Assembly: GCA_001803795.1 (NCBI GenBank)
Contig: MHEK01000094.1
Coordinates: 4,758-43,061 of the forward strand
DNA: 38,304 bases
Origin: Nitrospirae bacterium RBG_16_64_22
GTDB lineage: Bacteria; Nitrospirota; RBG-16-64-22
Reading direction: 5' to 3'
Position 1 is the stretch's first letter. Each line of letters opens with the position of its first letter. The notes under the pieces were generated by a model, which did not search any database, had not been told where the DNA came from, and saw only the letters and a program-made list of their open reading frames with translations. A program made the position numbers and the translations under genes. Shown piece after piece: positions 12,238 through 32,491 of this stretch.

Positions 12238-12556
12238 GGGCCCGAGATCCGATGCACAAATTAACATGCGCAAAACAATGCCGCTTCCATTCCTCTCCTC
12301 CGTGCACCACCCGGTTCCCGGCCTCGTGCTCGGAACGGGCACCGGGAGATTGCCGAGCCATGCACTTGTCCAGTCTGCCAGCGCGCAACTCCCGCCGGGT
12401 CCCCCGGATCGCCCCGAACAATGCGGTTTCAATTAGCCAACCAGGCGCTGGCGCAATGCTGTTTCGTTGCCGGAGGGTGGGGGGATCGGCGGCGGTCATT
12501 GTTGGTACCATGAAAATCGGATAGTATATTTTCCCATTTCATGGTATGGTCCGGGC
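12238..12556 (+). promoter_or_regulatory. 319-bp gap with a hairpin and the DUF4143-gene promoter region
   Basis: No gene is visible here and base composition is lower in GC than the neighbours. CCCGGTTCCCG 12310-12320 pairs with CGGGCACCGGG 12336-12346 (one mismatch). Just before the ATPase gene, TACCATGAAA 12506-12515 is repeated inversely as TTTCATGGTA 12537-12546, bracketing a possible -10 TAGTAT at 12522-12527 that has TTGTTG 17 bases upstream. The dyad around the promoter suggests regulator binding. Confidence 0.45.
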
Positions 12557-13735
12557 ATGATCGAACGTTCTCGGCTTCTCAACACCATCCGTAGAGCGTT
12601 GCGCCGCAGCCGTGTGGTTGCGCTGGTGGGGCCGCGTCAATGTGGGAAGACAACCCTGGCGCGCCAGATTGTCGCGCCGACCGCCGTCAATTATTTCGAT
12701 CTTGAAGACCCGGTCAGCCTTGTTCGCCTTGCCGAGCCAATGACGGCTCTCGCAGGGTTGCGCCGGGTGGTGGTGATCGACGAGGTGCAACGAAGGCCCG
12801 ATTTGTTCCCGATGTTGCGTGTATTGGCGGATCGCAAGCCGCTGCCGGCCCGCTTTCTCATCTTGGGCAGCGCGTCGCCGGAGCTCATGCGCCAATCGTC
12901 GGAGTCCCTGGCGGGTCGGCTTGAGACAATACCGCTGTCCGGGTTCAGTCTGGCTGAGGTTGGCGTGCCGGCGCTTAATCGGCATTGGCTGCGCGGCACG
13001 TTTCCGCGATCTTTTCTCGCCCGTTCAAACGCCGAGAGCGGCGCATGGCGGCAGCAGTTTATTCACACGTTCCTGGAGCGGGATCTGCCGCAGCTCGGCA
13101 TCGGCGTCCCGGCACCGGCACTGCTCCGATTCTGGACGATGCTGGCGCATTATCATGGCAACATTTGGAACGCGGCGGAACCGGCACGCTCACTGGGAGT
13201 CAGCGAACCGACGGTGAGGCGCTACCTGGACTTGCTGACCGGCCTCTTCATGGTGCGGCAACTCAAGCCCTGGCACGAGAATTTGAAGAAGCGCCAAGTG
13301 AAAGCGCCCAAGATTTACCTGCGCGACAGCGGGTTGCTGCATCGTCTCTTGGGTATCGGTGCCGAGAGGGATTTGCTCGCGCATCCGAAATGCGGCGCAT
13401 CGTGGGAGGGTTACGCCATGGAGGAGGCGCTCAAGGTGGCACAGCCGGATGAAGCGTACTTCTGGGCGACGCATCAGGGCGCCGAGCTGGACCTGCTGAT
13501 CTTCAAGGATGGCCGGAGGCTGGGGGTGGAAATCAAACGTATGGATGCGCCGGTGTTGACGCCCTCTATGCGCATTGCGCTTGAGGACCTTAAGCTGGAG
13601 CAGATCGTTGTGCTTTATCCCGGAAGAGTGCGCTATGCTTTGGCCGAGCGAGTCAACGTGATGCCGTTGAGCATGCTCGGGGAAGATGCCATGGCAATGT
13701 TTCCGCGGCCTGGACGGGGACGGAAGAAAGGCTAG
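12557..13735 (+). CDS. AAA ATPase with DUF4143 domain
   Basis: The track starts at 12467, but the recognisable protein begins at ATG 12557 (MIERSRLLNTIRRALRRSR), 392 residues. Residues ~20-35 contain VALVGPRQCGKTTLARQ, a Walker A motif. RRVVVIDEVQRRPDLFPML follows as Walker B, then FLILGSASPELMR. The C-terminal half (EIKRMDAPVLTPSMRIALED) is the DUF4143 part with a nuclease-like fold core ELDLLIFKDGRRLGVEIK. These genes are widespread, patchily distributed and often called AAA_14/DUF4143 proteins; their role is unknown. The codon use is less GC-biased than the flanking genes, suggesting acquisition. It is converging with gatB. Confidence 0.9.
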   Translation: MIERSRLLNTIRRALRRSRVVALVGPRQCGKTTLARQIVAPTAVNYFDLEDPVSLVRLAEPMTALAGLRRVVVIDEVQRRPDLFPMLRVLADRKPLPARFLILGSASPELMRQSSESLAGRLETIPLSGFSLAEVGVPALNRHWLRGTFPRSFLARSNAESGAWRQQFIHTFLERDLPQLGIGVPAPALLRFWTMLAHYHGNIWNAAEPARSLGVSEPTVRRYLDLLTGLFMVRQLKPWHENLKKRQVKAPKIYLRDSGLLHRLLGIGAERDLLAHPKCGASWEGYAMEEALKVAQPDEAYFWATHQGAELDLLIFKDGRRLGVEIKRMDAPVLTPSMRIALEDLKLEQIVVLYPGRVRYALAERVNVMPLSMLGEDAMAMFPRPGRGRKKG

Positions 13736-13785: not shown

Positions 13786-15243
13786 TTATTGCGAATCTGT
13801 CGGGGGCTGGAGCTTCGCCTTGAGGATCTCGTTGACCTTGGCAGGGTTGGCTTTGCCGCCGCTCTTCTTCATCACCTGGCCGACGAAGAAGCCGAAGAGC
13901 TTCTCCTTCCCGCCGCGGTAGGCGGCGAGCTCGTTCGGATTGTCCGCCATGACCTGCTCGATCACCCGCTCGATCTCGCCCGCGTCCGAGACCTGGACGA
14001 GGCCCTTCTCCTTCACGACGATGGCGGCGTCCTTCCCGGACTTGAACATCTCTTCGAAGATCGTCTTCGCGATCTTCCCGCTGATCGTCCCGTCCGCGAT
14101 CAGCTTGAGCATTTCCGCCAGCCGCTCCGGCGTTACGGGCGAGGCGGCGATCTCTCCTCCGGCCTCGTTGAGGAAGCGTGTCAGGTCGCCCATGATCCAG
14201 TTCGCCGCGGTCTTCGGCTGGCCGGAGAGCCGGACGGTCTCCTCGAAATAGTCCGCCGCGGCGCGTTCCTCCGAGAGGAAGGCGGCGTCGTACTCCGATA
14301 GGCCGTACTCGCGCGCGAACCTCTCGCGCGTCGCGTCCGGAAGCTCGGGGAGCTCCCGCGCCCACGCCTCGACCTGCGCCCGTTCGAGGACGAGCGGGAC
14401 GAGGTCCGGCTCGGGGAAGTAGCGGTAGTCGTGGGCTTCCTCCTTGCTCCGCATCGAGACAGTGACGCCCCTGGCGGAGTCGAAGAGGCGCGTCTCCTGG
14501 ACGACCCGCCCCCCTCCCTCGACGACGGCGATCTGCCGCTCGATCTCATAAGCGATCGCCTGCTTGACGAACCGGAACGAGTTCACATTCTTGATCTCCG
14601 CCTTCGTGCCAAGAGCGTCCGACCCAGCGGGGCGGATGGAGACGTTCGCGTCGCACCGGAGAGACCCTTCTTCCATGTTCCCGTCGCAGACGTTCAGACA
14701 GCGGAGCGTGCTCCGGATCTTCTTCAGGTACGCCACGGCTTCCTCGGGGGTCCGTATCTCCGGCTCGCTCACGATCTCCATGAGGGGGACGCCGGAGCGG
14801 TTCAGGTCCACGCGCGACGTGTCGGCGCTCCCCTCGTGGATGTTCTTCCCGGCGTCCTCTTCGAGATGAATCCGATGCAGGGTGACCGTCCGCACGTCTC
14901 CGTCCACGACGATCTCGACGCGCCCTCCCTCGCAGACGGGCGACTCGTATTGCGAGATCTGGTACCCCTTGGGAAGGTCCGGGTAGAAATAGTTTTTTCG
15001 GGCGAACCGGCTCTCGGGCGCGATCTTCGAGTGGAACGCGAGACCCGTCTTGGCGATGTATTCGACGGCCTTCCGGTTCAACACGGGGAGGGCGCCCGGA
15101 AGGCCCAAACAGACGGGACAGGTCTGCGTGTTCGGCGGGGCGCCGAATCGGTTGGCGCAGGCGCAGAAGTTCTTCGATTCCGTCAGGAGCTGGGCGTGAA
15201 CCTCGAGACCGATGACGGCCTCGTACTTTGCCCCGGCGTTCAT
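13786..15243 (-). CDS. gatB: Asp/Glu-tRNA(Asn/Gln) amidotransferase subunit B
   Basis: GatB recognises misacylated Asp-tRNA(Asn) or Glu-tRNA(Gln) and activates the acyl group in the GatCAB complex. The ATG at 15243 begins [19 protein letters not shown] and overlaps the gatA stop by four bases (ATGA), so I reject the longer track start at 15396. The length is 485 residues. Visible features are the zinc-binding [37 protein letters not shown], and the C-terminal YqeY-like tail region ending [12 protein letters not shown]. It is the last gene of the minus-strand block. Confidence 0.96.
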
Positions 15244-16718
15244 GCCGCGGATCCTTCCCCGGCGGCTGGAGGCTTCCTCTTGTGCCAGCCGCCCGCCTGC
15301 TCGTAGGCGTGGGCCGCGCGAAGGAGCGTCGGCTCGTCGAACGCCCTGGCCAGGAACTGAAGGCCGATCGGGAGGTTCCCCGAAGAGAATCCGCAAGGGA
15401 GCGAGAGTCCCGGGATCCCCGCCAGGTTCACGGAGATCGTAAAGATGTCGGAGAGGTACATCTGGAGGGGATCGGCCGTCTTCTCGCCGATCTTGAACGC
15501 GGGCGTCGGGGCCGTGGGCGTTACGATCACGTCCACGGTCTCGAACGCCCGGTCGAAGTCCTGCTTGATGAGCGTCCGGACCTGCTGGCCCTTCCGGTAG
15601 TAGGCCTCGTAATAGCCCGCGGAGAGGGCGTACGTGCCGAGCATGATCCGCCTCTTCACCTCCGCCCCGAACCCCTCCGACCGGCTCTCCATGTACATTT
15701 CCAGGAGATCGGAGGGGCGGCTCGTCCGATGGGCGTACTTGACGCCGTCGTACCGCGCGAGGTTGGACGAGGCCTCGGACGTGGCGAGAATGTAGTAGAC
15801 GGCGACGGCGTACGGCGTGTGCGGCAGAGACACCTCGCGAACGTCCGCGCCGAGACGTCGAAGGACGTCCACGCCGCCCAGGACGGCCTTCTCCACCTCC
15901 GGGTCCATCCCGGAGGTGAAATACTCCTTAGGGATCCCTATCCGGAGGCCCCGGACGTCTCCCGTCAGCGCCGCGGCGTGGCTCGGGACCGGGACGTCGG
16001 CGGAGGTGGAATCGGCCGGGTCTTTCCCCGCGATCGCGTCCAGGACAAGGGCCGCGTCGCGTACGTCCTTCGCCAGCGGCCCGATCTGGTCAAGCGAGGA
16101 GGCGAACGCGACGAGACCGTAGCGCGAAACGCGGCCGTAAGTCGGCTTGAGTCCGACGATCCCGCAACAGGCGGCCGGCTGGCGGATAGAGCCGCCCGTG
16201 TCGCTTCCGAGCGCAACGGCGCACATGTCGGCTGAGACGGCGGCGGCCGAGCCGCCGGACGATCCACCGGGGATCCGACCCGTGTTCCACGGGTTCCGCG
16301 TAACCTGGAAGGCGGAGTTCTCCGTGGACGAGCCCATGGCGAACTCGTCCAGGTTCGTCTTCCCGACGAAGACGGCGCCGGCCTTGTCGAGAGCGGATAC
16401 GACCGTGGCGTCGTACGGAGGCACGAAGTTCCCGAGGATCTTCGAGGCGCAGGTCGTCCGCGTCCCCCGCGTGCAGAGGTTGTCCTTGAGGGCGACCGGG
16501 ATTCCCGCGAGAGGGCCGGCCAGACCGCGCGCGATCCGCGCGTCGGCCGCGGCCGCCTGCTTCCGGGCTGTCTCTTCCATGAGCGTGAGGAAAGCCCGGA
16601 TGCCGGGATCGACCGCGCGGATGCGCGAGAGCGCCGCGTCCAGGACCTCCACGGCCTTGACCTCCTTCTTTCGAAGAAGATCCGAGAGTTCGTGAGCGGT
16701 TTTTTCCGTCAGGGACAA
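15240..16718 (-). CDS. gatA: Asp/Glu-tRNA(Asn/Gln) amidotransferase subunit A
   Basis: GatA is the amidase subunit that liberates ammonia from glutamine for transfer to the misacylated tRNA. The 492-residue protein shows the amidase-signature Ser-cisSer-Lys triad: the lysine in [14 protein letters not shown], the two serines in [15 protein letters not shown] and [12 protein letters not shown]. It lies 29 bp downstream of panD and overlaps gatB by four bases, so A and B are translationally coupled. Its C-terminus reads [13 protein letters not shown]. Confidence 0.96.
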
Positions 16719-16747: not shown

Positions 16748-17110
16748 CTACAGCCGGCCGCGGCGGGCGATCCGGTTCTTCTCGTCCACGACGATGATCG
16801 TGGGTTTGAACTTCTTGTGCTCTTCCTCAGGGTAGAGCTCGTAGCAGAAGATCACGATCCGGTCCCCTTTCTGCCCCTTGCGGGCGGTCGGGCCGTTGAG
16901 ACACATTTGCCCCGATCCTTTTCGCCCGGGGATGACGTACGTTTCGAACCGCTCGCCGTTGTTCAGGTTCGAGATCATCACCTGCTCGTATGGCAGGATC
17001 CCGGCGGCGTCCATGAGCAACCGGTCCACGGTGATGCTCCCCTCGTAGTTCAAGTCGGCGTCCGTGACCGTCGCCCGGTGGATCTTGGACCTCAGCATGA
17101 TTCGGTACAT
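16748..17110 (-). CDS. panD: Aspartate 1-decarboxylase proenzyme
   Basis: PanD makes beta-alanine for pantothenate and CoA. The track starts at 17161, but the conserved start is [20 protein letters not shown] at 17110, giving 120 residues. Residues 24-25 (YEGSITVD) are the Gly-Ser pair cleaved to form the pyruvoyl group, and [14 protein letters not shown] is the conserved strand. The placement between gatC and gatA is unusual, because gatCAB normally form an uninterrupted run. A ribosome binding site AGAGGAAAC precedes the ATG. Confidence 0.94.
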
Positions 17111-17128
17111 TTGTTTCCTCTTCTTCTG

Positions 17129-17158
17129 ACCGCGGAGATCGCCGAGGCCGCCGAGAAA
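17129..17158 (-). repeat. Fragment resembling the dispersed repeat
   Basis: ACCGCGGAGATCGCCGAGGCCGCCGAGAAA between panD and gatC resembles the ACCGCGGAGGACGCGGAGG core of the repeats at 2285 and 4308, with three-base periodicity. I judge it a probable degenerate copy by eye. Confidence 0.4.
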
Positions 17159-17204
17159 CAAGGATATCTCCGGGTCCCCTGCGCCCTCCGAGGTGGATGG
17201 CGGC

Positions 17205-17492: not shown

Positions 17493-19639
17493 CAGGCCGG
17501 CTCCAGGGGGGCGTACTTGAGGGAGAGCTTCTTGGTTCCGACGCGGGAGAAGGCGATCGTCACCTTGCGGTCCTCGCCCTCTCCCTCGAACGATCGGATG
17601 ATTCCCCGACCGAAGGTCGGATGGGACACTGATCTCCCGACCGGGAAGGGGTCGGCGTCCGATTCCGCAAGCGCGACGAAGGGGGCGCGGTCCCGTTCCC
17701 CGCGGTTCGCGGGCGGGTGGAGGGACGTCCGTTCCAGCAGGTCCTCCGGGATCTCGTCCAGGAAGCGCGAAGGGAGGTTCCACTGCGTGGAGCCGTAGAT
17801 GTGCCGGCTCTCGGCGTGGGAGAGATGGAGCTTTTCCATCGCCCGCGTGATGGCGACGTAGCAGAGGCGCCGCTCTTCCTCGAGGTCGTGGGGCGAGTCG
17901 GAGGAGCGGGCGTGCGGAAAGATTCCCTCTTCCATCCCCGTGACGAAGACAACCGGGAACTCGAGCCCCTTCGCGTTGTGCATCGTCATGAGCGTTACCG
18001 CCCTTCCGTCCGTCCCGGCCTGTTCGAGGTCCGTAATCAGGGCGACCTGGTCGAGGAACCCCGTGAGTGAGGGCTCGGGCGTCTCCGCCTCGTACTCCAT
18101 GACGGCGGTCACGAGCTCCTTCAGGTTCTCGACGCGCATCTGCGTCTCGAGGCTCTTGTCGGACTCGAGCTCCTTCAGGTAGCCGGTCCCCTCCAGAACG
18201 CGGCGGAGGATCTCGGAGGGAGGCAGGGTCTCGGCCCCTTTTCGGAGCGAAGCGAGAAGGCCCGCGAACCCCTCGATCTTGCCGCGCGGGGCGGGGGAGA
18301 GGGACGAGACGCAGGACGGATCGCCCAGGGCGCGGCCGAGCGATCCCCCGTGGGCCGCCTCCAGCCGGGCCAGCGTGGCCGGCCCGATCCCCCGGGCCGG
18401 AACGTTGATCACGCGCTTGAGCGCGAGGTCGTCGTCGGGATTGGCGATCAGCCGGAGGTAGGCGATCACGTCCTTGATCTCTTTCCGGTCGTAGAAGCGG
18501 AGCCCGCCGACGATCCGGTACGGAAGGCCGGCGTTGCGGAACGTCTCTTCGAAGATGCGCGACTGGGCGTTCGTCCGGTAGAGGACGACGCAGTCGGAAG
18601 TCGTCCCGCCGTCTTCCACGTGGCGCTGGACCGATCGGGCCACGAAGAGGGCCTCCATCCGTTCGTCCGGGGCGGCGACGCAGGCGATCCGCTCACCGCG
18701 GCTCCGGGCCGTCCAGAGCGACTTGGGTTTCCGCGCCGTGTTGTTCCGGACGACGGCCGTGGCGGCGTCCAGGATCTGCTGAGTGGAGCGGTAGTTCTGG
18801 TCGAGCGTGACGACGACCGCCTCGGGATAGTCGCGCTCGAAGGAGAGAATATTGGAAAGGTCCGCCCCGCGGAACCGGTAGATCGACTGGTCGTCGTCTC
18901 CCACGACGCAGAGGTTCCGGTGGGCGGCCGCGAGCGCGCGGACGAGCCTGTACTGCGCGTGGTTCGTGTCCTGGTACTCGTCGACCAGGATGTAGCGGAA
19001 ACGGTCCTGCCAGCGCGCGAGAACGTCGGGATGCGACTCGAACAGCCGGACGGCCGTCATGAGCAGGTCGTCGAAGTCGAGGGCCTGGATGTTCGAGAGG
19101 TGCCGCTGGTACATCTCGTAGACGCGGGCCGCCTTCGCGTCCAGGCCGAACGACTGCGTGCTCGCGAGCTGTCCGGGCCCGATCAGGCGGTTCTTCCAGT
19201 CGGAGATCCGGGGGCCGATGGCCCGGGGCGGGTAGAGCGACTCGTTGATGTTGAGTTCGCGGACGCACGCCTTGATGAGAGAGGAGCGGTCCTGCTCGTC
19301 GATGATCGTGAACGCCGGCTTGATCCCCGCCGCGGCCGCCTCGCGCCGGAGGATCCGGACGCAGGCCGAATGGAACGTGGAGACCCAGAGGCCGTCCACG
19401 GTCTGCCCCAGAAGGCGCCCGATGCGCTCGCGCATCTCTCCCGCCGCCTTGTTCGTGAACGTGACGGCGAGGACGCGGCCGGGCGGAACGCCGCGCGCCC
19501 GGACGAGATGGGCGATCCGGTGCGTGATCGTCCGCGTCTTGCCGCTGCCGGCCCCGGCCAGGATCAGGAGGGGTCCGGCTTCGTGGAGGACGGCCTGACG
19601 CTGGGGCGGGTTGAGGTGTTCGAGGAAATCGGTCGCCAT
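17492..19639 (-). CDS. pcrA: PcrA/UvrD-type superfamily 1A DNA helicase
   Basis: This 715-residue protein is a 3'-5' helicase of the PcrA/UvrD family, used in nucleotide excision repair and replication conflict removal. Walker A is ILAGAGSGKTRTI (residues ~27-39), motif II is LVDEYQDTNHAQY, motif III DDDQSIYRFRGA, motif IV VVTLDQNYRST, motif V TMHNAKGLEFPVVFVTGMEEG and motif VI RRLCYVAITRAMEKL. The 2B region contains LPPSEILRRVLEGTGYLKEL. It lies 12 bp after glmS, and its stop overlaps the gatC start, placing it in the same transcript. Confidence 0.95.
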   Translation of the reverse strand: MATDFLEHLNPPQRQAVLHEAGPLLILAGAGSGKTRTITHRIAHLVRARGVPPGRVLAVTFTNKAAGEMRERIGRLLGQTVDGLWVSTFHSACVRILRREAAAAGIKPAFTIIDEQDRSSLIKACVRELNINESLYPPRAIGPRISDWKNRLIGPGQLASTQSFGLDAKAARVYEMYQRHLSNIQALDFDDLLMTAVRLFESHPDVLARWQDRFRYILVDEYQDTNHAQYRLVRALAAAHRNLCVVGDDDQSIYRFRGADLSNILSFERDYPEAVVVTLDQNYRSTQQILDAATAVVRNNTARKPKSLWTARSRGERIACVAAPDERMEALFVARSVQRHVEDGGTTSDCVVLYRTNAQSRIFEETFRNAGLPYRIVGGLRFYDRKEIKDVIAYLRLIANPDDDLALKRVINVPARGIGPATLARLEAAHGGSLGRALGDPSCVSSLSPAPRGKIEGFAGLLASLRKGAETLPPSEILRRVLEGTGYLKELESDKSLETQMRVENLKELVTAVMEYEAETPEPSLTGFLDQVALITDLEQAGTDGRAVTLMTMHNAKGLEFPVVFVTGMEEGIFPHARSSDSPHDLEEERRLCYVAITRAMEKLHLSHAESRHIYGSTQWNLPSRFLDEIPEDLLERTSLHPPANRGERDRAPFVALAESDADPFPVGRSVSHPTFGRGIIRSFEGEGEDRKVTIAFSRVGTKKLSLKYAPLEPA

Positions 19640-19651
19640 GCCCTGCCGAAT

Positions 19652-21484
19652 TTACTCCACCGTCACGCTCTTGGCAAGGTTTCTCGGCTGGTCGACGTCG
19701 CATCCCTTCAGGTCCGCGATGTGATAGGCGAGAAGCTGGAGCGGAAGGGCGAAGAGGATCGGCGTGAGGAGCGGATGGGTCGCGGGAACGTCGAGGACCG
19801 CTTCGGCCCTCGCGCGGACCGATTCGTCCGCGCGGTCGGTCACGGCGATGATTCGCCCTCCGCGGGCCCGCACTTCCTCGAGGTTCGAGAGGACCTTCTC
19901 GTAGACGGCGTCATGAGGCGCGAGGACCACGACGGGGACCTGCTCGTCGATGAGGGCGATCGGTCCGTGCTTGAGCTCTCCGGCCGGATACCCTTCCGCG
20001 TGGATGTACGAGATCTCTTTGAGCTTGAGCGCCCCTTCGAGCGCCACGGGGAAGTTGATTCCCCGGCCCAGGTAGAGGAAGTCCCGCGACACCGCCAGCC
20101 GCCTCGCGAGGGCGGCGATCTCCCCCGAGCGGGCCAGGGCCTCCTCCATCCGGTGGGGAATCCGGATGAGTTCTTCGAGGAGGGAGCGGGCGGCGTCGTT
20201 CGTCAGCGTCCCGCGGCCCCGGCCGAGGCGGACGGCGAGGAGAAAGAGGGCCGCGAGTTGGGAGGTGAACGCTTTCGTGGAGGCGACGCCGATCTCCGGA
20301 CCGGCGTGCGTGTAGACGACCGCGTCGGCTTCCCGCGTGGCCGTGCTCCCGACGACGTTGCAGATCGCGACCGTCCTCGCCCCGCGGCGCCTGGCTTCGC
20401 GCTGGGCGGCCAGCGTATCGGCCGTCTCGCCCGACTGCGTGACCCCGACGAAGAGAGTGCCGGGGGGGATGAGGGGATCGCGGTAGCGGAACTCGGAAGC
20501 GATGTCGACCGTCACGGGAAGGCGGGCCAGCGCCTCGATCCAGTAGCGCGCGATGAGGCCCGCGTGCCAGGACGTCCCGCACGCCACGATGACGACCTGC
20601 TTGAGGTCCCGGACCGCGCTCTCGTCGAGCATGAAACCCTCGATCTCTACCTCGCCGCGCTCGAGCGAATAGCGGCCGAGGAGCGTGTCGGAGAACGAGC
20701 GGGGCTGTTCGTGGATCTCCTTGAGCATGAAGTGCTTGTACCCGCCGCGCTCGGCCATCACGGGGTTCCAGTCGATCCGGGTCGCGGTCTTCGGGCGGGG
20801 GTCCCCTTGGAGGCCGGTGATCTCGACGCCGCTCCGCGAGAGGACCGCCACATCCCCGTCGTCGAGGAAGATCACGTCGCGTGTGTACGGAAGGACAGCC
20901 GGGACATCCGACGCGAGGAACGACGCGCCGTCCCCGAGGCCTACGATGAGCGGGGATCCGTTGCGGGCCCCAACGACGAGGCCGGGCTCGCTCTCGGACA
21001 CGACGCCGATGGCGTACGTGCCCCGGACCTCGGCCAGGGCCGCCCGGACCGCCTCGGGCAGGGCGAGACCGCGCTTCGACTGGCGGTCGATCAGGTGGCA
21101 GAGGACCTCGGTGTCGGTCTCGGACATGAAGGTTCGGCCTTCGCCGAGTAGTTCCTTCTTGAGCTCCATGTGGTTCTCGATGATGCCGTTGTGGACGAGG
21201 ACGAGGCCGCCCACGCGGTGCGGGTGGGCGTTCGCCTCCGAGGGGGGGCCGTGCGTCGCCCAGCGGGTGTGGCCGATTCCGGTGGAGCCCTGGAGCGGCT
21301 CCTGTGAGACGACCTTCTCCAGGTTCGCGAGCTTTCCGGTGCTTCGCCTCAGCTCGATCCGCCCCGTTCCGTTCAGGACGGCGAGTCCGGCCGAGTCGTA
21401 CCCGCGGTACTCCAGGCGCTTCAGGCCGTCCAGGAGGATGGGAACGCTGTCGTCAGGTCCGATGTATCCGACGATTCCGCACAT
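19652..21484 (-). CDS. glmS: Glutamine-fructose-6-phosphate transaminase (isomerizing)
   Basis: GlmS forms glucosamine-6-phosphate from fructose-6-P and glutamine, the entry to amino-sugar synthesis. The 610-residue protein starts MCGIVGYIG, with Cys2 as the glutaminase nucleophile. The N-terminal domain contains HTRWATHGPPSEANAHPH. Two SIS sugar-isomerase domains follow (CGTSWHAGLIARYWIE; FLYLGRGINFPVALEGALKLKE), and the protein ends LAKSVTVE, the conserved C-terminus. I see no glmS ribozyme consensus upstream. The 107-bp gap to glmU is filled with short tandem repeats. Confidence 0.97.
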   Translation of the reverse strand: MCGIVGYIGPDDSVPILLDGLKRLEYRGYDSAGLAVLNGTGRIELRRSTGKLANLEKVVSQEPLQGSTGIGHTRWATHGPPSEANAHPHRVGGLVLVHNGIIENHMELKKELLGEGRTFMSETDTEVLCHLIDRQSKRGLALPEAVRAALAEVRGTYAIGVVSESEPGLVVGARNGSPLIVGLGDGASFLASDVPAVLPYTRDVIFLDDGDVAVLSRSGVEITGLQGDPRPKTATRIDWNPVMAERGGYKHFMLKEIHEQPRSFSDTLLGRYSLERGEVEIEGFMLDESAVRDLKQVVIVACGTSWHAGLIARYWIEALARLPVTVDIASEFRYRDPLIPPGTLFVGVTQSGETADTLAAQREARRRGARTVAICNVVGSTATREADAVVYTHAGPEIGVASTKAFTSQLAALFLLAVRLGRGRGTLTNDAARSLLEELIRIPHRMEEALARSGEIAALARRLAVSRDFLYLGRGINFPVALEGALKLKEISYIHAEGYPAGELKHGPIALIDEQVPVVVLAPHDAVYEKVLSNLEEVRARGGRIIAVTDRADESVRARAEAVLDVPATHPLLTPILFALPLQLLAYHIADLKGCDVDQPRNLAKSVTVE

Positions 21485-21506
21485 TGAGGGGCTGGTCTCC
21501 TATTGC

Positions 21507-21588
21507 TGGTCAATGGTCAATAGTTAATGGTCAATGGTCAAAAAGGGCCTTCCGTCCCTCCCCAACTCCGAGCTCCCAACTCCGAACC
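21507..21588. repeat. Heptamer and 14-mer repeats in the glmU-glmS gap
   Basis: TGGTCAA is repeated at 21507, 21514, 21528 and 21535, with a variant TAGTTAA at 21521, giving five contiguous heptamers. Nearby, CCCAACTCCGAGCT (21561-21574) and CCCAACTCCGAACC (21575-21588) form a 14-bp direct repeat. They occupy most of the space between two co-oriented genes. Confidence 0.7.
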
Positions 21589-21591
21589 GAC

Positions 21592-23346
21592 CTACAGCCT
21601 CCGGTCGGCCAGGGAGAGGAGGGACTTGACCTCGTCCATCCACGCTTCCGTCTCGGCGCCGGACCGCTTCGTCGGGGCCGACTGCACCCAGTGAAGGAAA
21701 CGCGTCTCGTCGAGAATCCGCCGGAGAAGGTCCGGGAGCGAAAGGGCCTGGTAGACGGAAGAGAGCCGCCGGACGAACGCCACGAACTCCTCCAGGCGCT
21801 CCATCCGCGCCTCGGGGATCTCGCGCGCCAGGAGCTCCTTGAACTTGGAGAAGAAGGCTTCCTCGTACGAGACGGCGAAGCGCTCGAACTTCCCGATGAG
21901 CGGCATCTCCGCGATTTCGTCGAACTCGACCGGCTTGCGGCGGGCGGGCGGCTTCTTCCCGGACGCGATCTTTCCCTCGCGCCGGGCCTTGACGTACTCC
22001 TCCCGGTTCATCTGCGGGACCCGGCTGATCGCGAGGGCCCGCGGCGGAACGTCGTCGGTGACGGTCGTCCCGGCGGCCACGAGGGCCCCCCGGCCCACGG
22101 TGACGGGGGCGATGAACTGGGTGTCGCTGCCGATGAAGGCCTCGTCCTCGATCGTCGTGGGGTGCTTCTTCCGGCCGTCGTAGTTGCAGGTGATCGTTCC
22201 GGCCCCGATGTTGACGCGCTTTCCGATCGTGGCGTCGCCCAGGTAGGAGAGGTGGTTCGCCTTCGTTCCGGCTCCGAGCGTCGTCTTTTTCACCTCCACG
22301 TAGTTTCCCACGCGGACGTCCTCCATGAGGACCGAGCCGGGGCGGAGATGGGCGAACGGACCGACGACCGCGCCGCGGCCGACCTGGCTTCCGACGACGA
22401 CGGTCGAGTCGCGCACGGCGGCGGCGTCGGCGATCGTCGAGTCGGCGATCCGGACGTGCGGTCCGATGAGGCAGTTCCGCCCGATCGTCGTCCGTCCTTC
22501 GAGCGTCGCGCCGGGATAGACCGTCGTGTCCGGTCCGATCGTCACCGTCGCGTCGATGTACGTGGAGTCCGGGTCGATGACCGTGACGCCCTCGAGCATC
22601 AGCGTTTCGATGATCCGGCGGCGGACGACCCGTTCCGCCCGCGCGAGATCGATCCGGTTGTTGATCCCTTCGGTTTCTTCCGCGTTCGTCGCGAAGACGG
22701 AGGCCACGGCCTTGCGCTGGTCGACGGCGATCTTCACCACGTCGGTCAGGTAGTATTCCTTCTTGGCGTTGTCGTTCTTCACCTTCTCGAGCGCTTCGAA
22801 GAGGAAGGACGCGTCGAAGCAGTAGACGCCGGTGTTGATCTCCTGGATCTGGCGCTCGACGGGCGACGCGTCCCGCTCCTCCACGATCCGGGTGACCCTG
22901 CCTTCATCGTCCCGCACGATGCGGCCGTATCCGCGCGGGTCGGGGACCGTCGTCGTGAGGAGCGTCACGTCGGCGTTCTGTCCCTTGTGCGTCTTGATGA
23001 GCTGGCCGACCGTCCCGGCCGTGAGGAGGGGCGTGTCGCCGCAAAGAATGAGGATCGTCCCCCGCGACCTGGACAGGATCGGCTTGACCTGCAGGACGGC
23101 GTGGCCCGTGCCGAGCTGCTCCGCCTGGGAGACGATCTCGACCTTCCTTCCTTCCAGAGCCTTGCGGACCTCTTCTTTCTGGTGCCCGACGACGATGATC
23201 GTCCGGGCGACGCCGAGCTTGTCGAGGAGATTGAGGGGATAATGGATCATCGGAAGACCGGCGACCGGATGGAGGACCTTGGGCTTCTGCGACTTCATCC
23301 GCGTTCCCTGGCCCGCGGCCAGGATGACAGCCACCATGCGCTGCAT
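21592..23346 (-). CDS. glmU: GlmU: UDP-GlcNAc pyrophosphorylase / acetyltransferase with a C-terminal extension
   Basis: GlmU acetylates glucosamine-1-P and then makes UDP-GlcNAc. The N-terminal uridyltransferase begins MVAVILAAGQGTRMKSQKPK; the left-handed beta-helix acetyltransferase has VGPFAHLRPGSVL, GNYVEVKKTTLGAGTKANHLSYLGDA and NYDGRKKHPT. The normal enzyme is about 455 residues, but here the protein is 584, with an extra ~114 residues from about 471. Part of this tail (LSLPDLLRRILDETRFLHWV) resembles the helicase 2B segment of PcrA/UvrD in the same window. ATG 23346 is preceded by GGGGAGG, which overlaps the DUF502 stop region. Confidence 0.93.
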   Translation of the reverse strand: MQRMVAVILAAGQGTRMKSQKPKVLHPVAGLPMIHYPLNLLDKLGVARTIIVVGHQKEEVRKALEGRKVEIVSQAEQLGTGHAVLQVKPILSRSRGTILILCGDTPLLTAGTVGQLIKTHKGQNADVTLLTTTVPDPRGYGRIVRDDEGRVTRIVEERDASPVERQIQEINTGVYCFDASFLFEALEKVKNDNAKKEYYLTDVVKIAVDQRKAVASVFATNAEETEGINNRIDLARAERVVRRRIIETLMLEGVTVIDPDSTYIDATVTIGPDTTVYPGATLEGRTTIGRNCLIGPHVRIADSTIADAAAVRDSTVVVGSQVGRGAVVGPFAHLRPGSVLMEDVRVGNYVEVKKTTLGAGTKANHLSYLGDATIGKRVNIGAGTITCNYDGRKKHPTTIEDEAFIGSDTQFIAPVTVGRGALVAAGTTVTDDVPPRALAISRVPQMNREEYVKARREGKIASGKKPPARRKPVEFDEIAEMPLIGKFERFAVSYEEAFFSKFKELLAREIPEARMERLEEFVAFVRRLSSVYQALSLPDLLRRILDETRFLHWVQSAPTKRSGAETEAWMDEVKSLLSLADRRL

Positions 23347-23350
23347 CGCT

Positions 23351-24043
23351 CTACCTCCCCGTGGGGGTGCCGGCGCCGGCCATCGCGCCCGCCTGCGCCG
23401 CGTTGGGCGAGGCCGTCAGGTCGGACGGAAACAGAGACCGGGCATTCAGGTCCGAAGGGGTCGCCGTGCCGCCGGAAAGGACCAGGCGGATCCCCTCTTC
23501 GATCGAGATCCCGGGATCGAGGACTTCGGACGTGCGGAAAAGGACGATCTCGCCAATGTAAAGGTGGTTCGTGGGGATGAAGACGGCCAAGACGGGGTCG
23601 ACGGAGCCGTCCGGGCGCCGGATGGTCGACCGGTCCGTGAGGAACCCGAACGAGTAAACGCCCGAGCGGGGATACTCCACCATGACGAACTTCTTGAAAG
23701 CCGTCTTGTTTGCGGGATTGAACGCGTCGATCAACTGCTTGACGGCCGTGTAGACGTTCTTGAAGATCGGGATCTTGAGCAGGAGGCGCTCGCCGAAATC
23801 GAGCAGGCGCTTGCCCACGACCGTCGCCGCCACGATCCCTACGAGGAAGACGATCACGAGACTCACGAGGAAACCGAGGCCGGGGATCGCCTCGCCCACG
23901 ATTCCCTTGAGCGGATCTCCGAGGAGCCGGTCGATCACGTTGAAGAAGGAGACGATTGCCGCGATCGTGAGGGCGAGCGGGATGACGATGAAGAGGCCGG
24001 TCAGGAACCGGGCCTTGAAATGGCCTGTCAAGGATGCAAGCAT
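23351..24043 (-). CDS. DUF502 family membrane protein
   Basis: The 230-residue protein starts MLASLTGHFKARFLTGLFIVIPLALT and contains two predicted membrane segments (about residues 14-35 and 50-75). The region QLIDAFNPANKTAFKKFVMVEYPRSGVYSFGFLT is characteristic of the DUF502 family of conserved inner-membrane proteins with unknown function. It stops four bases before the glmU start. It is the first gene of the glmU-glmS-pcrA-gat block, and a putative promoter lies 27 bp upstream. Confidence 0.85.
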   Translation of the reverse strand: MLASLTGHFKARFLTGLFIVIPLALTIAAIVSFFNVIDRLLGDPLKGIVGEAIPGLGFLVSLVIVFLVGIVAATVVGKRLLDFGERLLLKIPIFKNVYTAVKQLIDAFNPANKTAFKKFVMVEYPRSGVYSFGFLTDRSTIRRPDGSVDPVLAVFIPTNHLYIGEIVLFRTSEVLDPGISIEEGIRLVLSGGTATPSDLNARSLFPSDLTASPNAAQAGAMAGAGTPTGR

Positions 24044-24495: not shown

Positions 24496-27420
24496 ATGAA
24501 GCTGCTTGAGAATTCCCTAACGCGGCGGACTTTCCTCAAGGTTTCTGGGACGATTGCGGTACTCTCGCAAATCCAGCCGGTGAGCGCGCAAGAGTGGCTC
24601 GCGCAAGTGGGCAAGTCCGGTTCCAAGCCGGATATGGTGGGCGACGGCGCCAAGATCGTGCGCAGCGTCTGCCTGATGTGCCACAGCGGTTGCGGCATTC
24701 AGTGCACCATCGTGAACGGCGAGCTGGTCAAGATCGACGGCAACCCCTATCACCCGAACACCTACGATTACGTGTCCAAGGGAGACATCGTCGAGGAAAG
24801 CGATCTCGACGGCGGCCTTGGCGGCAAGGACGTCGGCACGCTCTGCGCGAAAGGCCAGGCAGGCATCTACGCGCTCTACAGCCCGGCGCGCCTCAAACAT
24901 CCGCTCAAGCGAGTCGGGCCACGCGGGTCCGGGAAATGGAAAACCATCTCGTGGGACCAGGCGCTGAAAGAGATCACCGAGGGCGGCCTGCTCTTCAAGG
25001 GCGTGCCCGGCGAGGAGAAACGATTCGTCGAGGGCCTCAAGTCAATTCTGAACAACGATGCACCCCTCGGTCCCGAAGATTCGGACTACATGGACGAGGC
25101 GCCGCCCGAAGGCTGGGGCCCGAAGCGCAACCAGTTCGTGTGGGCGCACGGGCGCAACGAGCAGTCGCCGCTGACTCCGCGCTTCGTCGCTGGCGCGGCG
25201 GGGGTTCCGAACATGCTCAATCACTGCGACCGTTGCGCGGGAACCTTCTACAACGTCGTAGAGCACACGCTGAACGTGCCGCCTTACGAGATCGGCGCCT
25301 ATGCCGATTACGAGTACTGCACGTACCTCATCAGCGTGGGATCCAACATCACCCACGCCGATTACCCCGGGCAGACCCGGGCGCGTTACCTGCAAAAGTT
25401 TGCCAAACGCACCGGGCCTGACGCCAAGCTGTTCAAGCACGTCGTGGTGGACCCGTGGCTTTCCCCCGCCGCGGCAAAAACGCTCCAGTCCGGCAAGGGC
25501 GAGTGGATCCCGCTCAAGCCTTCGACCGACGCTTACTTCCTGGTGGGGATGATCCGCTGGATGATCGAGAGCAAGGCCTACAAGGCCGACTTCCTCGCGC
25601 TGCCGAACCAGCAGGCGGCGAAGAAGACCGGCCGTCGTAACTGGACCGACATGACCTACCTGGTCAGGACCAAGGAGCCCAAGCTGTATCTCACGGGCAG
25701 GGATGCGGGGCTGGGCCAGGCCGACTACGTTGTGCTGGTGGGCGGTAAGCCCACGCTGTTCCACGAAGTCGATGGGCCGGCCGACCTCGATGCCGAGGTC
25801 GAGATCAAGGGCGAGAAGTACAAGACGGTATTCCGCCTGCTGCGTGAGCGCGCGCAGGAGAAATCGCTGGAAGAGTGCGAGCGGGAATGCGACATTCCTG
25901 CCGGCACGATTGCGCATCTGGGGAAGGAGTTTTCCAGCGCCAAGCGGCCGGTGATCGAGATGTTCCGCGGCCCCATTCAGCAGTCGAACGGCTGGTATAA
26001 TGGCCAGGCATTGTGCATCCTCAACATGATGGTGGACAACATCGACCGCAAGGGCGGCTACATTCCCGGGCACAAGGCATACGCCGGCGACGTGAAAGGG
26101 CCCGGCCGCAAACCGAGCGGTGTTTCGGTGGATCGGCACAAGGACAAGTATCAGGGCAAGAAGCCGGTTTCCACGCGTCCGTGGTACCCGCTGGCGGTGC
26201 GTACCGTGACCAGCGAGTTTTTCTCGGCCGCAAAGATGGGTTATCCGTATCGCATCAAGGCCTACCTGAACTACTACAACGACCCGGCCTATACCCAGCC
26301 GTTCAACGCCCCGGTCATCGAGGCACTGCTCGACCTGAGAGCCATGCCGCTCACCTTCAGCATCGACGCCTACATGGGCGAAACCAGCCAACTGTGCGAC
26401 TACGTCCTGCCGGACACCGAATACCTCGAGCGCATCGGCGGCTTCAAGACCTACCCGCCTGTCAAGACGCGGGTCCAGGCCCTGCGGCAGCCGGTGATCG
26501 GCACCCTCGATCCGAAGACCAAGAACTACCGCGGCATCCATCCGGACGTGCAGACGGCGGACGATACGCTCATCCAGCTTGCCCTGCGTTGCGGCTTGCC
26601 GGGCTTCGGCAAGGATGGCGGCGGCCCAGGTGTCGACCTGTTCAACTCCTGGCAGTTCTGGAACGAGTTCTACAAGAACGGCGACTTCAAGGGCGAGCCG
26701 GGGCTGGATCCGGACAGCCGCCTGGTCAAGCTCGGCGGCAAGTTCGAGAACCCGGGCAAGCAGTACGAGGGCGACTACACGCGCTTCCCGGGTGGCCGGC
26801 AGGTGCGCGGCCTGCTGGCCTACGCCGCAAACGTGGCGGCGAACAAGAACAGCATGACGGGCAAGTTCTACGATGGTCTGCCGCTATACCGGTTCATCAT
26901 CGACTGCAAGGAGCAGCCGCTGGATCCCGCCCTGTGGAAGGAGTACCCGTTCCAGCTCCATACCCACAAGGATGCCTGGCACACCCAGACGCGCACCATG
27001 AACAACCTGTGGCTGGCCTCGATCAAGCCGCAGAACTACGCGGAGATGAATCCGGCCGACGCGCAGAAACTCGGCGTGGTGACCGGCGACTGGGTCAAGG
27101 TCAAATCGCCTTCGAGCAAGCACATCCCGTTCGTGGAGGTTTCCATGGGCGATGGCTGGTACAAGATGCAGGTGCGCGTCACCAGCCGCATCCGGCCCGG
27201 CGTCTTCTCGGTGAGCCAGTCCTACGGGCGCTGGGGCGCCGGAGGGAGAGCCTGGGCCGCGAACGGCAAGCCGCAATACAACGATAAGCGCATCGGCGCG
27301 GGCTACAGCATCAACCCGCTGTACATGGCAGACCCCGTCCTGGGGGACCGTTGCCTGATCGACCCGGTGGCGGGCGGCACCCAGAGCTATGGGACGCCGC
27401 TCCGTGTAGAAAAAGTCTAA
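24496..27420 (+). CDS. Tat-exported molybdopterin oxidoreductase (DMSO reductase superfamily), catalytic subunit
   Basis: The track begins at 24418, but ATG 24496 starts MKLLENSLTRRTFLKVSG, a twin-arginine signal with cleavage near PVSA-QEW; the protein is 974 residues. Cys59-x2-Cys62-x3-Cys66 (CLMCHSGC) and Cys117 (GTLCAKGQ) form the [4Fe-4S] site next to molybdenum. NHCDRCAGTFYN aligns with the metal-ligand loop of NapA-type enzymes, so Cys247 is the likely Mo ligand, as in Psr/Phs/Ttr-like and nitrate reductases. The C-terminal molybdopterin-dinucleotide part includes MNPADAQKLGVVTGDWVKV and ISRPGVFSVSQ-like strands. The substrate is unknown; sulfur, arsenic, selenium or other oxyanions are possible. 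The electron-transfer partner follows 10 bp downstream. Confidence 0.9.
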   Translation: MKLLENSLTRRTFLKVSGTIAVLSQIQPVSAQEWLAQVGKSGSKPDMVGDGAKIVRSVCLMCHSGCGIQCTIVNGELVKIDGNPYHPNTYDYVSKGDIVEESDLDGGLGGKDVGTLCAKGQAGIYALYSPARLKHPLKRVGPRGSGKWKTISWDQALKEITEGGLLFKGVPGEEKRFVEGLKSILNNDAPLGPEDSDYMDEAPPEGWGPKRNQFVWAHGRNEQSPLTPRFVAGAAGVPNMLNHCDRCAGTFYNVVEHTLNVPPYEIGAYADYEYCTYLISVGSNITHADYPGQTRARYLQKFAKRTGPDAKLFKHVVVDPWLSPAAAKTLQSGKGEWIPLKPSTDAYFLVGMIRWMIESKAYKADFLALPNQQAAKKTGRRNWTDMTYLVRTKEPKLYLTGRDAGLGQADYVVLVGGKPTLFHEVDGPADLDAEVEIKGEKYKTVFRLLRERAQEKSLEECERECDIPAGTIAHLGKEFSSAKRPVIEMFRGPIQQSNGWYNGQALCILNMMVDNIDRKGGYIPGHKAYAGDVKGPGRKPSGVSVDRHKDKYQGKKPVSTRPWYPLAVRTVTSEFFSAAKMGYPYRIKAYLNYYNDPAYTQPFNAPVIEALLDLRAMPLTFSIDAYMGETSQLCDYVLPDTEYLERIGGFKTYPPVKTRVQALRQPVIGTLDPKTKNYRGIHPDVQTADDTLIQLALRCGLPGFGKDGGGPGVDLFNSWQFWNEFYKNGDFKGEPGLDPDSRLVKLGGKFENPGKQYEGDYTRFPGGRQVRGLLAYAANVAANKNSMTGKFYDGLPLYRFIIDCKEQPLDPALWKEYPFQLHTHKDAWHTQTRTMNNLWLASIKPQNYAEMNPADAQKLGVVTGDWVKVKSPSSKHIPFVEVSMGDGWYKMQVRVTSRIRPGVFSVSQSYGRWGAGGRAWAANGKPQYNDKRIGAGYSINPLYMADPVLGDRCLIDPVAGGTQSYGTPLRVEKV

Positions 27421-27430
27421 GGAGGACATC

Positions 27431-28057
27431 ATGTCTGAATACAGCCCCGTCATTCCCCGCGAAGCCGTCGACCGGTCCTTTGCCAAGCAGGGCCCGAAGC
27501 AATATACGCTGTGGGTCGACATCGAGCATTGCATCGGCTGTAATGCCTGCACGATGGCCTGCAAGGCGGAGAACAACACGCCCATCGGCGTGGATTACAA
27601 CCGCGTGATCGAGATCGAGGAGGGTGATTTCCGCGATCCGCGGAAGGCGCCCAACGTCGGCGTCACCTTTGTGCCGATGCCCTGCATGCACTGCGGGCGG
27701 CCGGCCTGCCAGGCCGCCTGCCCGGTGGGCGCGATTACCAAGCGCAAGCAAGACGGCATCGTCCTCATCAACAAGGACAAGTGTATCGGCTGCCGCTACT
27801 GCGCCTGGGCTTGCCCTTACGGCGCGCCGCAGTTCAACGCGGAGGCGAAGATCATGGAGAAATGCACGCTGTGCGTCCATCGCGTCGAGAAAGGGCAGCT
27901 GCCCGCGTGTGTCAACACATGCCCCGCCAAGGTGAGGTTCTTCGGGGAGCTCAACGAGATCACGGTGCTCATGCGGGAGAAGCGCGCGCGCAGCTTCAGC
28001 ATCAGCGTCGCCGGAGCGGATACGAAACCGAGCGTGCAGTACACGATCCCCAGATAG
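27431..28057 (+). CDS. Four-cluster ferredoxin-type subunit (PsrB/DmsB/TtrB-like)
   Basis: The 208-residue protein has four Cys groups, C34-37-40-44, C85-88-93-97, C118-121-124-128 and C145-148-160-164, the arrangement of the electron-transfer subunit of DMSO reductase-family enzymes. It has no signal peptide of its own and would be co-exported with the Tat-signal subunit. ATG 27431 follows AAGGAGGACATC, an excellent ribosome binding site. It passes electrons between the Mo subunit and an unidentified donor or acceptor. No NrfD-type membrane anchor follows. Confidence 0.92.
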   Translation: MSEYSPVIPREAVDRSFAKQGPKQYTLWVDIEHCIGCNACTMACKAENNTPIGVDYNRVIEIEEGDFRDPRKAPNVGVTFVPMPCMHCGRPACQAACPVGAITKRKQDGIVLINKDKCIGCRYCAWACPYGAPQFNAEAKIMEKCTLCVHRVEKGQLPACVNTCPAKVRFFGELNEITVLMREKRARSFSISVAGADTKPSVQYTIPR

Positions 28058-28066
28058 CGGAGAGTT

Positions 28067-29260
28067 GTGTCGGCCGTGAACATGGACAACATTGTCGAGA
28101 TCCAGTGCGAGCCGCCGGTGCGCGTGGAGAACGAGCTGTGCTCGCGTTTCCGCTGCACGAAGTCGCAATGCGCGGCGTGCGCGGCCGTATGTCCGGTGCC
28201 GCGGGCCGTCCGCTTTGTCGAGCAGGGTGTCGAAATCACCGGCGCGTGCATTGCGTGTGACGCCTGCGCCTCGGCTTGCCCGAACGGGGCGATCCAACCT
28301 GCGGAGAGCGACCGGCGGCTGGCAGAACGCATGCGCGAGCGCGTACGGCCCCCGGCGGGATTCCGCATTGGCTGCGAGCGGGCGGAAGGTCCGGCAGATT
28401 TCGTCGTGCCTTGCTTGAGTCGTCTCACCGAAGCGGTCCTCCTGGAGCCGATTCGATGCGGGGCGGAGCGTGTCGAACTCCTCGCTCCTGACTGCTCGGG
28501 CTGCCAGCTTGAGAGGGCCGCGCCTCAGTGGGGGATGGTCCTGAACCTCGCGCGCGCCCTCTGCGAATCGGCGGGGTTCGACGCGGACCGCATTGTCCGG
28601 ACCGATGCGCCGAGGCGAAAGCGGGAGATGACGCGCATTCCTCTCAGTGCTCCCGGCTCGCGGCGCGCGATGTTCCGTGCCTTCGCCAAATGGACGGCGA
28701 AGACCGCTGCCGCGGCCATGCCGGATGCGGCGCCGGAGCAGACGGCGGCCGAGGCGTTCCGCGCCATCGTGCAGCGCCATCCGGAGAATCCCAAGAGGTC
28801 TCACTTGCTGGAGGTGTTGCAGAGTCTCCCCGGCGCCGAAGCGCAGCCGACAGTGGTTCCCGCCGCGGGAAAACCCTTCGCCCACCTTGAAGTCACCCCC
28901 GGGTGCGCGGGCTGCAACGTTTGCGAAACCCTCTGTCCCGTGGGTGCCCTCCGCCGCCGTGGAGAGAACGGTACATTTGCCCTCGACTTTGACCCCGCGC
29001 TGTGTACCGGGTGCCGCGTTTGTGAGGTTGCTTGCTTTCACAAGGCCGTTCGCGTTCGGGAAACGGTCGACCTCTCGGTTCTGTTTGAACGCCAGAGCGC
29101 CACGCTCATTTCCGCGACGCGGCGCACCTGCCGAGCCTGCCACGAGACCTTCCTGGGCGACGCATCGGAGTTCTGCCCGTCCTGTCTCGTCAGCGGCGAT
29201 CGTCGCGATGCGATCGCCAGGCGCTTCTTTCTGGGAGGAAATAGGGGTGATTGGTCATAA
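28067..29260 (+). CDS. Unusual multi-cluster Fe-S protein (ferredoxin, MvhD-like and zinc-ribbon-like parts)
   Basis: This 397-residue protein has no signal peptide. Clusters are suggested by C25/30/35/38/42 plus C61/64/67/71 near the N-terminus, and C280/283/286/290 plus C313/316/319/323 near the C-terminus. C355/358/370/373 (CRACH and CPSC) look like a zinc ribbon rather than a heme site. The middle (VPCLSRLTEAVLLEPIRCGAERVELLAPDCSGCQ) resembles the MvhD/FlpD hydrogenase iron-sulfur subunit fold; that match is by eye and tentative. The start may be GTG 28067, GTG 28076 or ATG 28082. It overlaps the next gene by 14 bp, so co-translation with the chaperone is likely. Its role is unknown. Confidence 0.7.
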   Translation: MSAVNMDNIVEIQCEPPVRVENELCSRFRCTKSQCAACAAVCPVPRAVRFVEQGVEITGACIACDACASACPNGAIQPAESDRRLAERMRERVRPPAGFRIGCERAEGPADFVVPCLSRLTEAVLLEPIRCGAERVELLAPDCSGCQLERAAPQWGMVLNLARALCESAGFDADRIVRTDAPRRKREMTRIPLSAPGSRRAMFRAFAKWTAKTAAAAMPDAAPEQTAAEAFRAIVQRHPENPKRSHLLEVLQSLPGAEAQPTVVPAAGKPFAHLEVTPGCAGCNVCETLCPVGALRRRGENGTFALDFDPALCTGCRVCEVACFHKAVRVRETVDLSVLFERQSATLISATRRTCRACHETFLGDASEFCPSCLVSGDRRDAIARRFFLGGNRGDWS

Positions 29261-29933
29261 GGAAATGCAGGCCGTCGCGGCGGGGCGGGCGAAGACCTAC
29301 GCGGTTCTCTCCGCGCTCTATTCGGTGCCGCCGTCGGAGGACCTGACGGCCATGATCCGAGCGGGCGCTCTTGTCGAGGAGGGGGCCTCTTCCCTCGGCG
29401 CGGCGGCGAAGGACCTGACCGCCGCCTTCCGCGATGCTGTCCTGGAGGATCGTCCGAACAACGAGCTTACGGCTGAACACACGCGTTTGTTCGTCCTGCC
29501 TTCCGGCGTGGTGCCCCACGAGTCGTTCTACCTTGACGAGAACAAGCGCGTGGGCGGTCGGGTGACGGTGGAGGTGCGGCGATATTACCAAGACGCCGCG
29601 GCCCAGATGACCAGCGCCTGCCTGGAGCTGCCCGACCACATGGGCGTCGAGCTGGAGTTCATGAAGTTCCTTTGCGAGATCGAGGAACAGTTCTGGAAGG
29701 AACCCAATCCGGACGGGCTGCAGAGGTGCCTTGATTTCCAGCACGGCTTTCTCACCGAGCACCTGTTGCGCTGGCACAGGCTCCTTTGCGAGAGGGTGAT
29801 CGCCGAGACGACGGCGGACGTGTACCGGGCAGTCGCCCGCCTCACCGTCGAGTTTCTGGAGGCCGAGCGGGCATTTGTGCCGGCATTGACCGAGGGAATT
29901 CGCTCCGAATGGAGGACAACATGCGAATCCTAG
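29247..29933 (+). CDS. TorD/DmsD-family redox-enzyme maturation chaperone
   Basis: The track frame starts far upstream, but GTG 29247 follows a GGGAGGAA ribosome binding site by six bases and gives 228 residues. The protein has the all-helical pattern of TorD-family chaperones: EHTRLFVLPSGVVPHESFY, ELPDHMGVELEFMKFLCE and FQHGFLTEHLLRWHRLLCE. Such chaperones bind the Tat signal and apo-protein of a molybdoenzyme until cofactor insertion. Its location supports service of the molybdoenzyme at 24496. It overlaps the Fe-S gene upstream and the cytochrome gene downstream. Confidence 0.85.
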   Translation: MIGHKEMQAVAAGRAKTYAVLSALYSVPPSEDLTAMIRAGALVEEGASSLGAAAKDLTAAFRDAVLEDRPNNELTAEHTRLFVLPSGVVPHESFYLDENKRVGGRVTVEVRRYYQDAAAQMTSACLELPDHMGVELEFMKFLCEIEEQFWKEPNPDGLQRCLDFQHGFLTEHLLRWHRLLCERVIAETTADVYRAVARLTVEFLEAERAFVPALTEGIRSEWRTTCES

Positions 29934-30484
29934 TTGTAATCTTTGCGTGCCTGGCCCTCGCCTCGACGGCCGTGCCGGCGCTGGAACCCCAGACCCCCAT
30001 CGACTGGCCGCCGAAAGCAGTTCCCAACCAGCAGAAGGGCAAGGTTCCGGACTTCACCGGCAAGAACGCGCTCTGCCTCGCCTGCCACGGGTACATCATG
30101 GACGTGAAGACCGCACGCAAGAACGTTCCCAACCTGCACCGTCTGCACCTGGAATCGAAGAAGACCGCCTACCAGGGCGAGAACCGCGCCTGCCTCACCT
30201 GTCACGAGATGCACGCCCCCTCGGAAGAGAAGGAGCGCAAGCAAGAGGGCTGGTTCGTCATGGCCGACGTGTATCACCCCAATGCGCTGCTCGCTCCTGC
30301 GGGCTTTTGGAAGAAACTGATTGTGCGTCCGGGTGAGGGCGCGCAATACACCCGCGTCGAGGCGCTCCGGCCGGCGGATCCCCATCCGTACAAGCCCACG
30401 CTGAAACGCCTGGTCTGCGCCCAGTGCCACGGCCTCGACAGCAAGATCAAGACGTTCTACGGCGCGCCCGCGGGAGCCAATTAG
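29921..30484 (+). CDS. Periplasmic triheme cytochrome c
   Basis: ATG 29921 has a GGAGG ribosome binding site within the preceding gene and overlaps torD by 13 bp; the 187-residue protein starts MRILVVIFACLALASTAVPA, a Sec signal peptide. It contains three CxxCH heme sites at residues 52-56 (CLACH), 91-95 (CLTCH) and 166-170 (CAQCH). Several other histidines could serve as distal ligands, so bis-His hemes are plausible. It is a good candidate for electron transfer to or from the Tat-exported enzyme. I do not recognise a named family. Confidence 0.88.
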   Translation: MRILVVIFACLALASTAVPALEPQTPIDWPPKAVPNQQKGKVPDFTGKNALCLACHGYIMDVKTARKNVPNLHRLHLESKKTAYQGENRACLTCHEMHAPSEEKERKQEGWFVMADVYHPNALLAPAGFWKKLIVRPGEGAQYTRVEALRPADPHPYKPTLKRLVCAQCHGLDSKIKTFYGAPAGAN

Positions 30485-30568
30485 CGCGGGTCACAGCGCG
30501 GCTCTCGGGCGGCAGCCGCACCCGGGAAGCCGGCCTCGGGCGGATCTCGGCTGGATTGGACAGGCATC

Positions 30569-32380: not shown

Positions 32381-32382
32381 TC

Positions 32383-32478: not shown

Positions 32479-32491
32479 AGGGAGGGTAGTC

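Follow-up and report, generated by a model that had tools for sequence, protein, structure and literature searches.

Bifunctional GlmU is a trimer, and its acetyltransferase site requires the trimer (PMC2675579). In Mycobacterium tuberculosis GlmU the C-terminus also extends past the beta-helix, but this extension is short (495 aa in total), was not built after residue 472, and is not reported to contain a helicase-like domain in that study (PMC2675579). The 2B subdomain of UvrD-family helicases is a regulatory contact domain. Helicase monomers are inhibited by contacts between 2B and duplex DNA that are made via the GIG motif, activation involves 2B–2B dimerization around Cys451 of M. tuberculosis UvrD1, and MutL binds 2B (PMC13238157).

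The window analyzed here is a stretch of 38,304 nt from contig MHEK01000094.1 of Nitrospirae bacterium RBG_16_64_22 (assembly GCA_001803795.1). It encodes a GlmU that resembles ordinary bifunctional GlmU (TIGR01173) in having a complete core (41–58% identity with the remaining GlmUs in the phylum), in the invariance of its catalytic positions, and in being the sole GlmU of its genome, but that differs in carrying an extra domain of ~112 residues after a basic linker. This tail shares with the 2B subdomain of UvrD/PcrA/Rep SF1A helicases the order of its central helices, the positions of the hydrophobic core, and a nearly gapless alignment of about 75–95 residues. Unlike 2B, it is not part of a helicase. 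It is missing the GIG hairpin, the last 2B helix, and the GY and RxEN signatures, and some invariant residues are specific to it. The recruitment of such a tail is moderately surprising. No published description of a helicase-derived GlmU tail was found in the literature searched, the coverage of which was partial, and the combination of GlmU with a 2B-derived tail is apparently an undescribed domain architecture of a known enzyme.

The GlmU core and the homology of its tail

The original prediction that this GlmU is about 114 residues longer than usual was borne out, as the GlmU family models end at around residue 455 of 584 and leave about 112–130 extra residues (Table 1). The TIGR01173 match scores 613 bits, above the cut-off of 366.85, and covers both catalytic domains. 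No second GlmU was found in the genome, in which the other sugar-nucleotidyltransferase-like matches have identities of 31% or less. Thirteen core positions with presumed catalytic roles in the family are invariant in an alignment of 26 sequences (R16, K23, D104, N229, R335, K353, H365, Y368, N379, N388, K394, S407, and R442). Judged by these residues, the core is intact and retains the catalytic residues of both sites.

The linker is the counterpart of the short basic stretch with which ordinary Nitrospirota GlmUs end (e.g. KKRKGNKTQEK), and 112 residues continue beyond it in the window GlmU. There are no UvrD_N or UvrD_C Pfam matches in this protein; the helicase motor subdomains 1A and 2A, with their ATPase motifs, are absent, and only the 2B-derived part is present.

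Table 1. Positions in the window of glmU, the parts of its product, and adjacent genes
Feature	Position	Strand	Basis or remark
glmU, bifunctional GlmU with appended C-terminal domain, 584 aa	21592–23346	minus	TIGR01173, E 2.6e-184, residues 5–455
GlmU core, residues 1–455, uridyltransferase and left-handed beta-helix acetyltransferase	21982–23346	minus	catalytic positions invariant
Basic linker, GlmU residues 456–472	21931–21981	minus	41% identity between genera, poorly conserved
Appended helical domain, GlmU residues 473–584	21595–21930	minus	in 4/4 class genomes, purifying selection
UvrD/PcrA 2B-homologous part, GlmU residues 483–576	21619–21900	minus	profile comparisons, HMMER, hhalign
Most conserved tail block, GlmU residues 521–555, FVAFVRRLSSVYQALSLPDLLRRILDETRFLHWVQ	21682–21786	minus	69% identical between genera
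glmS, between glmU and pcrA	19652–21484	minus	recognized by sequence
pcrA, 715 aa	17492–19639	minus	TIGR01073, E 1.5e-275
2B segment of PcrA equivalent to the GlmU tail, PcrA residues 422–515	18095–18376	minus	
DUF502-like membrane protein gene	23351–24043	minus	presumed

The homology of the tail to 2B is decisive because of profile comparisons, the tail–PcrA pair alone being weak (24% identity over 62 residues with the window's own PcrA in BLASTP, E 0.003 in a single comparison). The top NCBIfam matches of two diverged tails (45% identical) were to Rep at 417–512 (E 0.007) and to PcrA at 419–510 (E 0.0016). When a profile of the four known tails (see below) was searched against 396 Nitrospirota genomes, essentially all strong matches below GlmU itself were UvrD/PcrA ORFs with helicase motifs, always at the same helicase segment, with a best non-self E value of 3.5e-8 per genome. 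Reciprocally, a 2B profile of 13 helicases, chosen independently of the tail, retrieved the four tailed GlmUs at E values of 1e-5 to 2.5e-4 (whole protein); the other matches at that level were helicase ORFs or fragments, some of them unlabelled by the motif filter. A 2B profile of 39 helicases retrieved the tails at 5e-10 to 8e-9.

Profile–profile alignment with hhalign gave a probability of 95.9, a score of 53.7 and a P value of 6.4e-9 against the 13-helicase profile, and a probability of 97.96 and a score of 75.9 against the 39-helicase profile. These scores are far above those of column-shuffled tail profiles (mean 12.4, SD 2.5, maximum 20.6, n = 150), of the reversed tail profile (16–17), and of PcrA stretches outside 2B compared with the tail profile (12–16). 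The shuffled, reversed, and off-target controls rule out a chance similarity between helical sequences. Residues 11–85 of the tail align gaplessly in hhalign with approximately residues 426–500 of Bacillus stearothermophilus PcrA, and HMMER extends the match to about 516. On the strength of these profiles, we conclude that GlmU residues 473–584 form a domain homologous to the center of the UvrD/PcrA 2B subdomain. The resemblance that had been noticed from about residue 515 onwards thus reflects true homology in profile–profile and reciprocal comparisons, but its start has to be moved to about residue 483, immediately past the GIG hairpin position, from where it runs to about residue 576.

Structure-based and family searches were uninformative. 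Pfam and PADLOC returned nothing useful for the tail alone, and a sequence search of solved structures with a single tail, which is a weak query, did not find a helicase. AlphaFold confidence in the tail was low (pLDDT 58 for the tail alone, 36–62 within full-length GlmU), and a fold search with this low-confidence model gave zero matches.

Distribution and origin of the tail

The tail is carried by all four genomes (two genera, two families) that represent the class in the genome collection, a small, uncultured class within the Nitrospirota. Among 41 genomes searched, comprising the genome itself and its relatives, two from the same genus encode the same GlmU (96% identity over residues 1–584) and one from the other family of the class encodes a tailed GlmU that matches over residues 2–578 (55% identity), whereas the remaining GlmU matches stop at or before query residue 471. 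The sample of tails therefore consists of four sequences, in effect two independent lineages. Of the 80 GlmU loci that matched best in the wider genome collection, only the two from the same genus were tailed. Beyond the phylum, the tail was sought through the best GlmU matches; it was not seen in these or in the other Nitrospirota GlmUs that were inspected.

Two of the four tail-bearing genomes are groundwater MAGs from different studies. The occurrence of the tail in four genomes from separate assemblies rules out an assembly chimera, an error that had been raised as a concern for the end of glmU. Low pairwise identity to helicases (16–25%) and the failure of the low-confidence AlphaFold tail model to match 2B are what an accidental resemblance between helical proteins, or a chimera, might look like. 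Given the shuffled and reversed controls, the specificity for 2B, the reciprocal matches, and the separately assembled genomes, we regard either as having practically no probability.

The genes lie on the minus strand in the order DUF502-like membrane protein gene, glmU, glmS, pcrA, and the original prediction had offered either a rearrangement involving pcrA or a domain recruitment as the source of the tail. Domain recruitment agrees with the homology to 2B and with the presence of the tail throughout the class, but a rearrangement of the pcrA in this window is not supported: the 2B segments of the class's PcrAs are among the weaker matches and group separately. Identity of the tail is 16–22% with the 2B segments of the class's PcrAs and up to 24–25% with the best PcrAs of other families, and the tail profile gives 8–12 bits for the former versus 24–30 bits for the best PcrAs. 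A tree built from the shared columns places the tails in a single clade (100%), whose long branch has no supported placement and whose internal split mirrors that of the genomes, one family versus the other; the PcrA 2B segments of the class form a separate clade (100% bootstrap). A recent copy of the neighboring pcrA is ruled out by the low identity and by a tree that does not join the tails with the class's PcrAs. As the tails form one clade that mirrors the genomes and stands apart from the class's PcrAs, the sequences indicate that the fusion arose once, before the class diversified, from a UvrD/PcrA-type helicase, and was inherited vertically afterwards. The order glmU-glmS-pcrA is common among genomes with an ordinary, untailed GlmU, and for this reason the neighborhood is no clue to a rearrangement; having pcrA nearby renders a source within the operon plausible without demonstrating it.

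Some variation was also observed in 2B segments of PcrA proteins. Compared with most relatives, the class's own PcrA has 3–4 fewer residues in this segment after the GIG motif, in both genera. In a deltaproteobacterial MAG, the pcrA product (L076:5770-7983) has a 2B insertion, VTGHWSLVTGQF, that resembles a translated short spacer repeat. In genome G314, pcrA (L133:92-1761) is interrupted within 2B, probably by a frameshift, which leaves ORFs of 468 and 105 aa.

Conservation and proposed role of the tail

Within the genus, the tail had dN/dS values of 0.06, 0.16, and 0.22 and the core had values of 0.07, 0.10, and 0.13, rough estimates from few changes. By this measure the tail is under purifying selection and, within the genus, evolves at about the same low rate as the essential core. 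Identity between families is 45% for the tail and 58% for the core. Two tail stretches stand out between genera, residues 483–499 (65%) and 521–555 (69%), and the best 31-residue tail window reaches 74% identity, a value equalled by only 9% of windows in the GlmU core. The tail ends and the linker vary freely.

The tail retains the usual helicase residues at E488, A491, F521 (found in 39 of 40 helicases), L528, L540, T548, and L576. At helicase signatures it has invariant residues of its own, with R526 in place of E/D and R549-F550 in place of G-Y, and the R and N positions of RxEN are occupied by the invariant W569 and E572. The GIG hairpin is absent from the tails of both genera, none of the four tails has a GIG motif, and the alignment resumes after the aligned P482 at the next helix. 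The last 2B helix (FLDQVALITD type) lies past the end of the tail. Residue by residue, buried 2B positions have been kept and the helicase surface lost, with a new surface conserved.

The best explanation, to which we assign a probability of roughly 0.6, is that the 2B-descended tail is a tethered helical protein-binding module that would no longer be part of a helicase. A 2B-derived domain of about 95–110 residues would be flexibly tethered to GlmU via the short basic linker, and because GlmU is trimeric, three copies would be displayed per enzyme. The tail begins with the helix that bears the position of M. tuberculosis UvrD1 Cys451, where K486 is aligned and the residue is basic in both genera. 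Since it lacks the DNA-contact hairpin yet starts at this helix, its likeliest use would be self-association of GlmU trimers or the docking of one partner protein, which could result in the placement or regulation of UDP-GlcNAc synthesis. We infer this binding role from residue conservation and by analogy with 2B. The tail is a regulatory piece of a helicase that has been reused as an accessory to a central enzyme of metabolism, its helicase residues gone and a new surface conserved, and it provides a well-defined and testable example of how an essential enzyme present in single copy can recruit a domain.

Conservation bears on a different explanation, in which a helicase fragment fused by chance and has been kept without any partner, for folding with GlmU, stability, or solubility. 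We consider this unlikely. The single origin in a small class, the loss of helicase signature residues, and the freely variable ends and linker would all fit, but not the slow, core-like change of the tail within the genus, nor a charged and aromatic block whose 69% identity between families exceeds what folding by itself usually needs.

The tail might instead still bind DNA and bring GlmU to the nucleoid, as the subdomain from which it is derived makes contact with duplex DNA in monomeric helicases (PMC13238157) and as the basic linker KARREGKIASGKKPPARRKP precedes it. The absence of the duplex-contacting GIG hairpin, of RxEN, and of other helicase signatures speaks against DNA binding and leaves protein–protein contact open, and basic C-termini are also ordinary in untailed GlmUs; this alternative appears highly improbable.

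A more specific form of protein contact would have the tail act as a 2B mimic that forms a dimer with PcrA's own 2B subdomain, or captures a partner of PcrA, and thereby tethers GlmU or activates or sequesters PcrA. UvrD-family helicases dimerize and are activated via 2B–2B contacts around the M. tuberculosis UvrD1 Cys451 position (PMC13238157), the tail begins at the corresponding helix with a basic residue aligned there in both genera, and glmU shares a gene cluster with pcrA, two genes downstream. The cluster is also present where GlmU is untailed, however, the GIG hairpin adjoining that interface is missing, and identity between the tail and the 2B of the class's PcrAs is just 16–22%, and we judge this pairing to be improbable. 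If it did occur, precursor supply and a replication/repair helicase would be physically coupled in this class; more generally, a partner that was PcrA or another replication protein would directly link the supply of cell-wall precursors to DNA metabolism. The link between GlmU and DNA repair that had been proposed for the tail is possible but unsupported.

Neighboring genes and spacers

The gene upstream of glmU is one whose product we take to be a DUF502-like membrane protein, and glmS was presumptively identified by its MCGIVGYIG start and two SIS domains. The glmU-glmS spacer (21498–21590) contains short degenerate repeats of the TTGACCA and GGAGTTGGGAGTTC types. The same spacer has about eight TTGACCA copies in G001 (L010) and a different, ACGTGCAACGTGCAGCGTG-type repeat at the same place in G003 (L011).

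Downstream of pcrA, the same strand encodes an aspartate decarboxylase (16748–17161), an amidase/GatA (15240–16718), and GatB (13786–15396), the gene for which is adjoined by a plus-strand AAA_14/DUF4143 ATPase gene (12467–13735). A cluster on the opposite strand (24496–33424) comprises genes for a molybdopterin oxidoreductase with a twin-arginine-like start (24496–27420), a 4Fe-4S protein (28067–29260), an alginate-export-like porin (30569–32380), and a FecR/PKD protein (32399–33424), and possibly encodes a respiratory enzyme.
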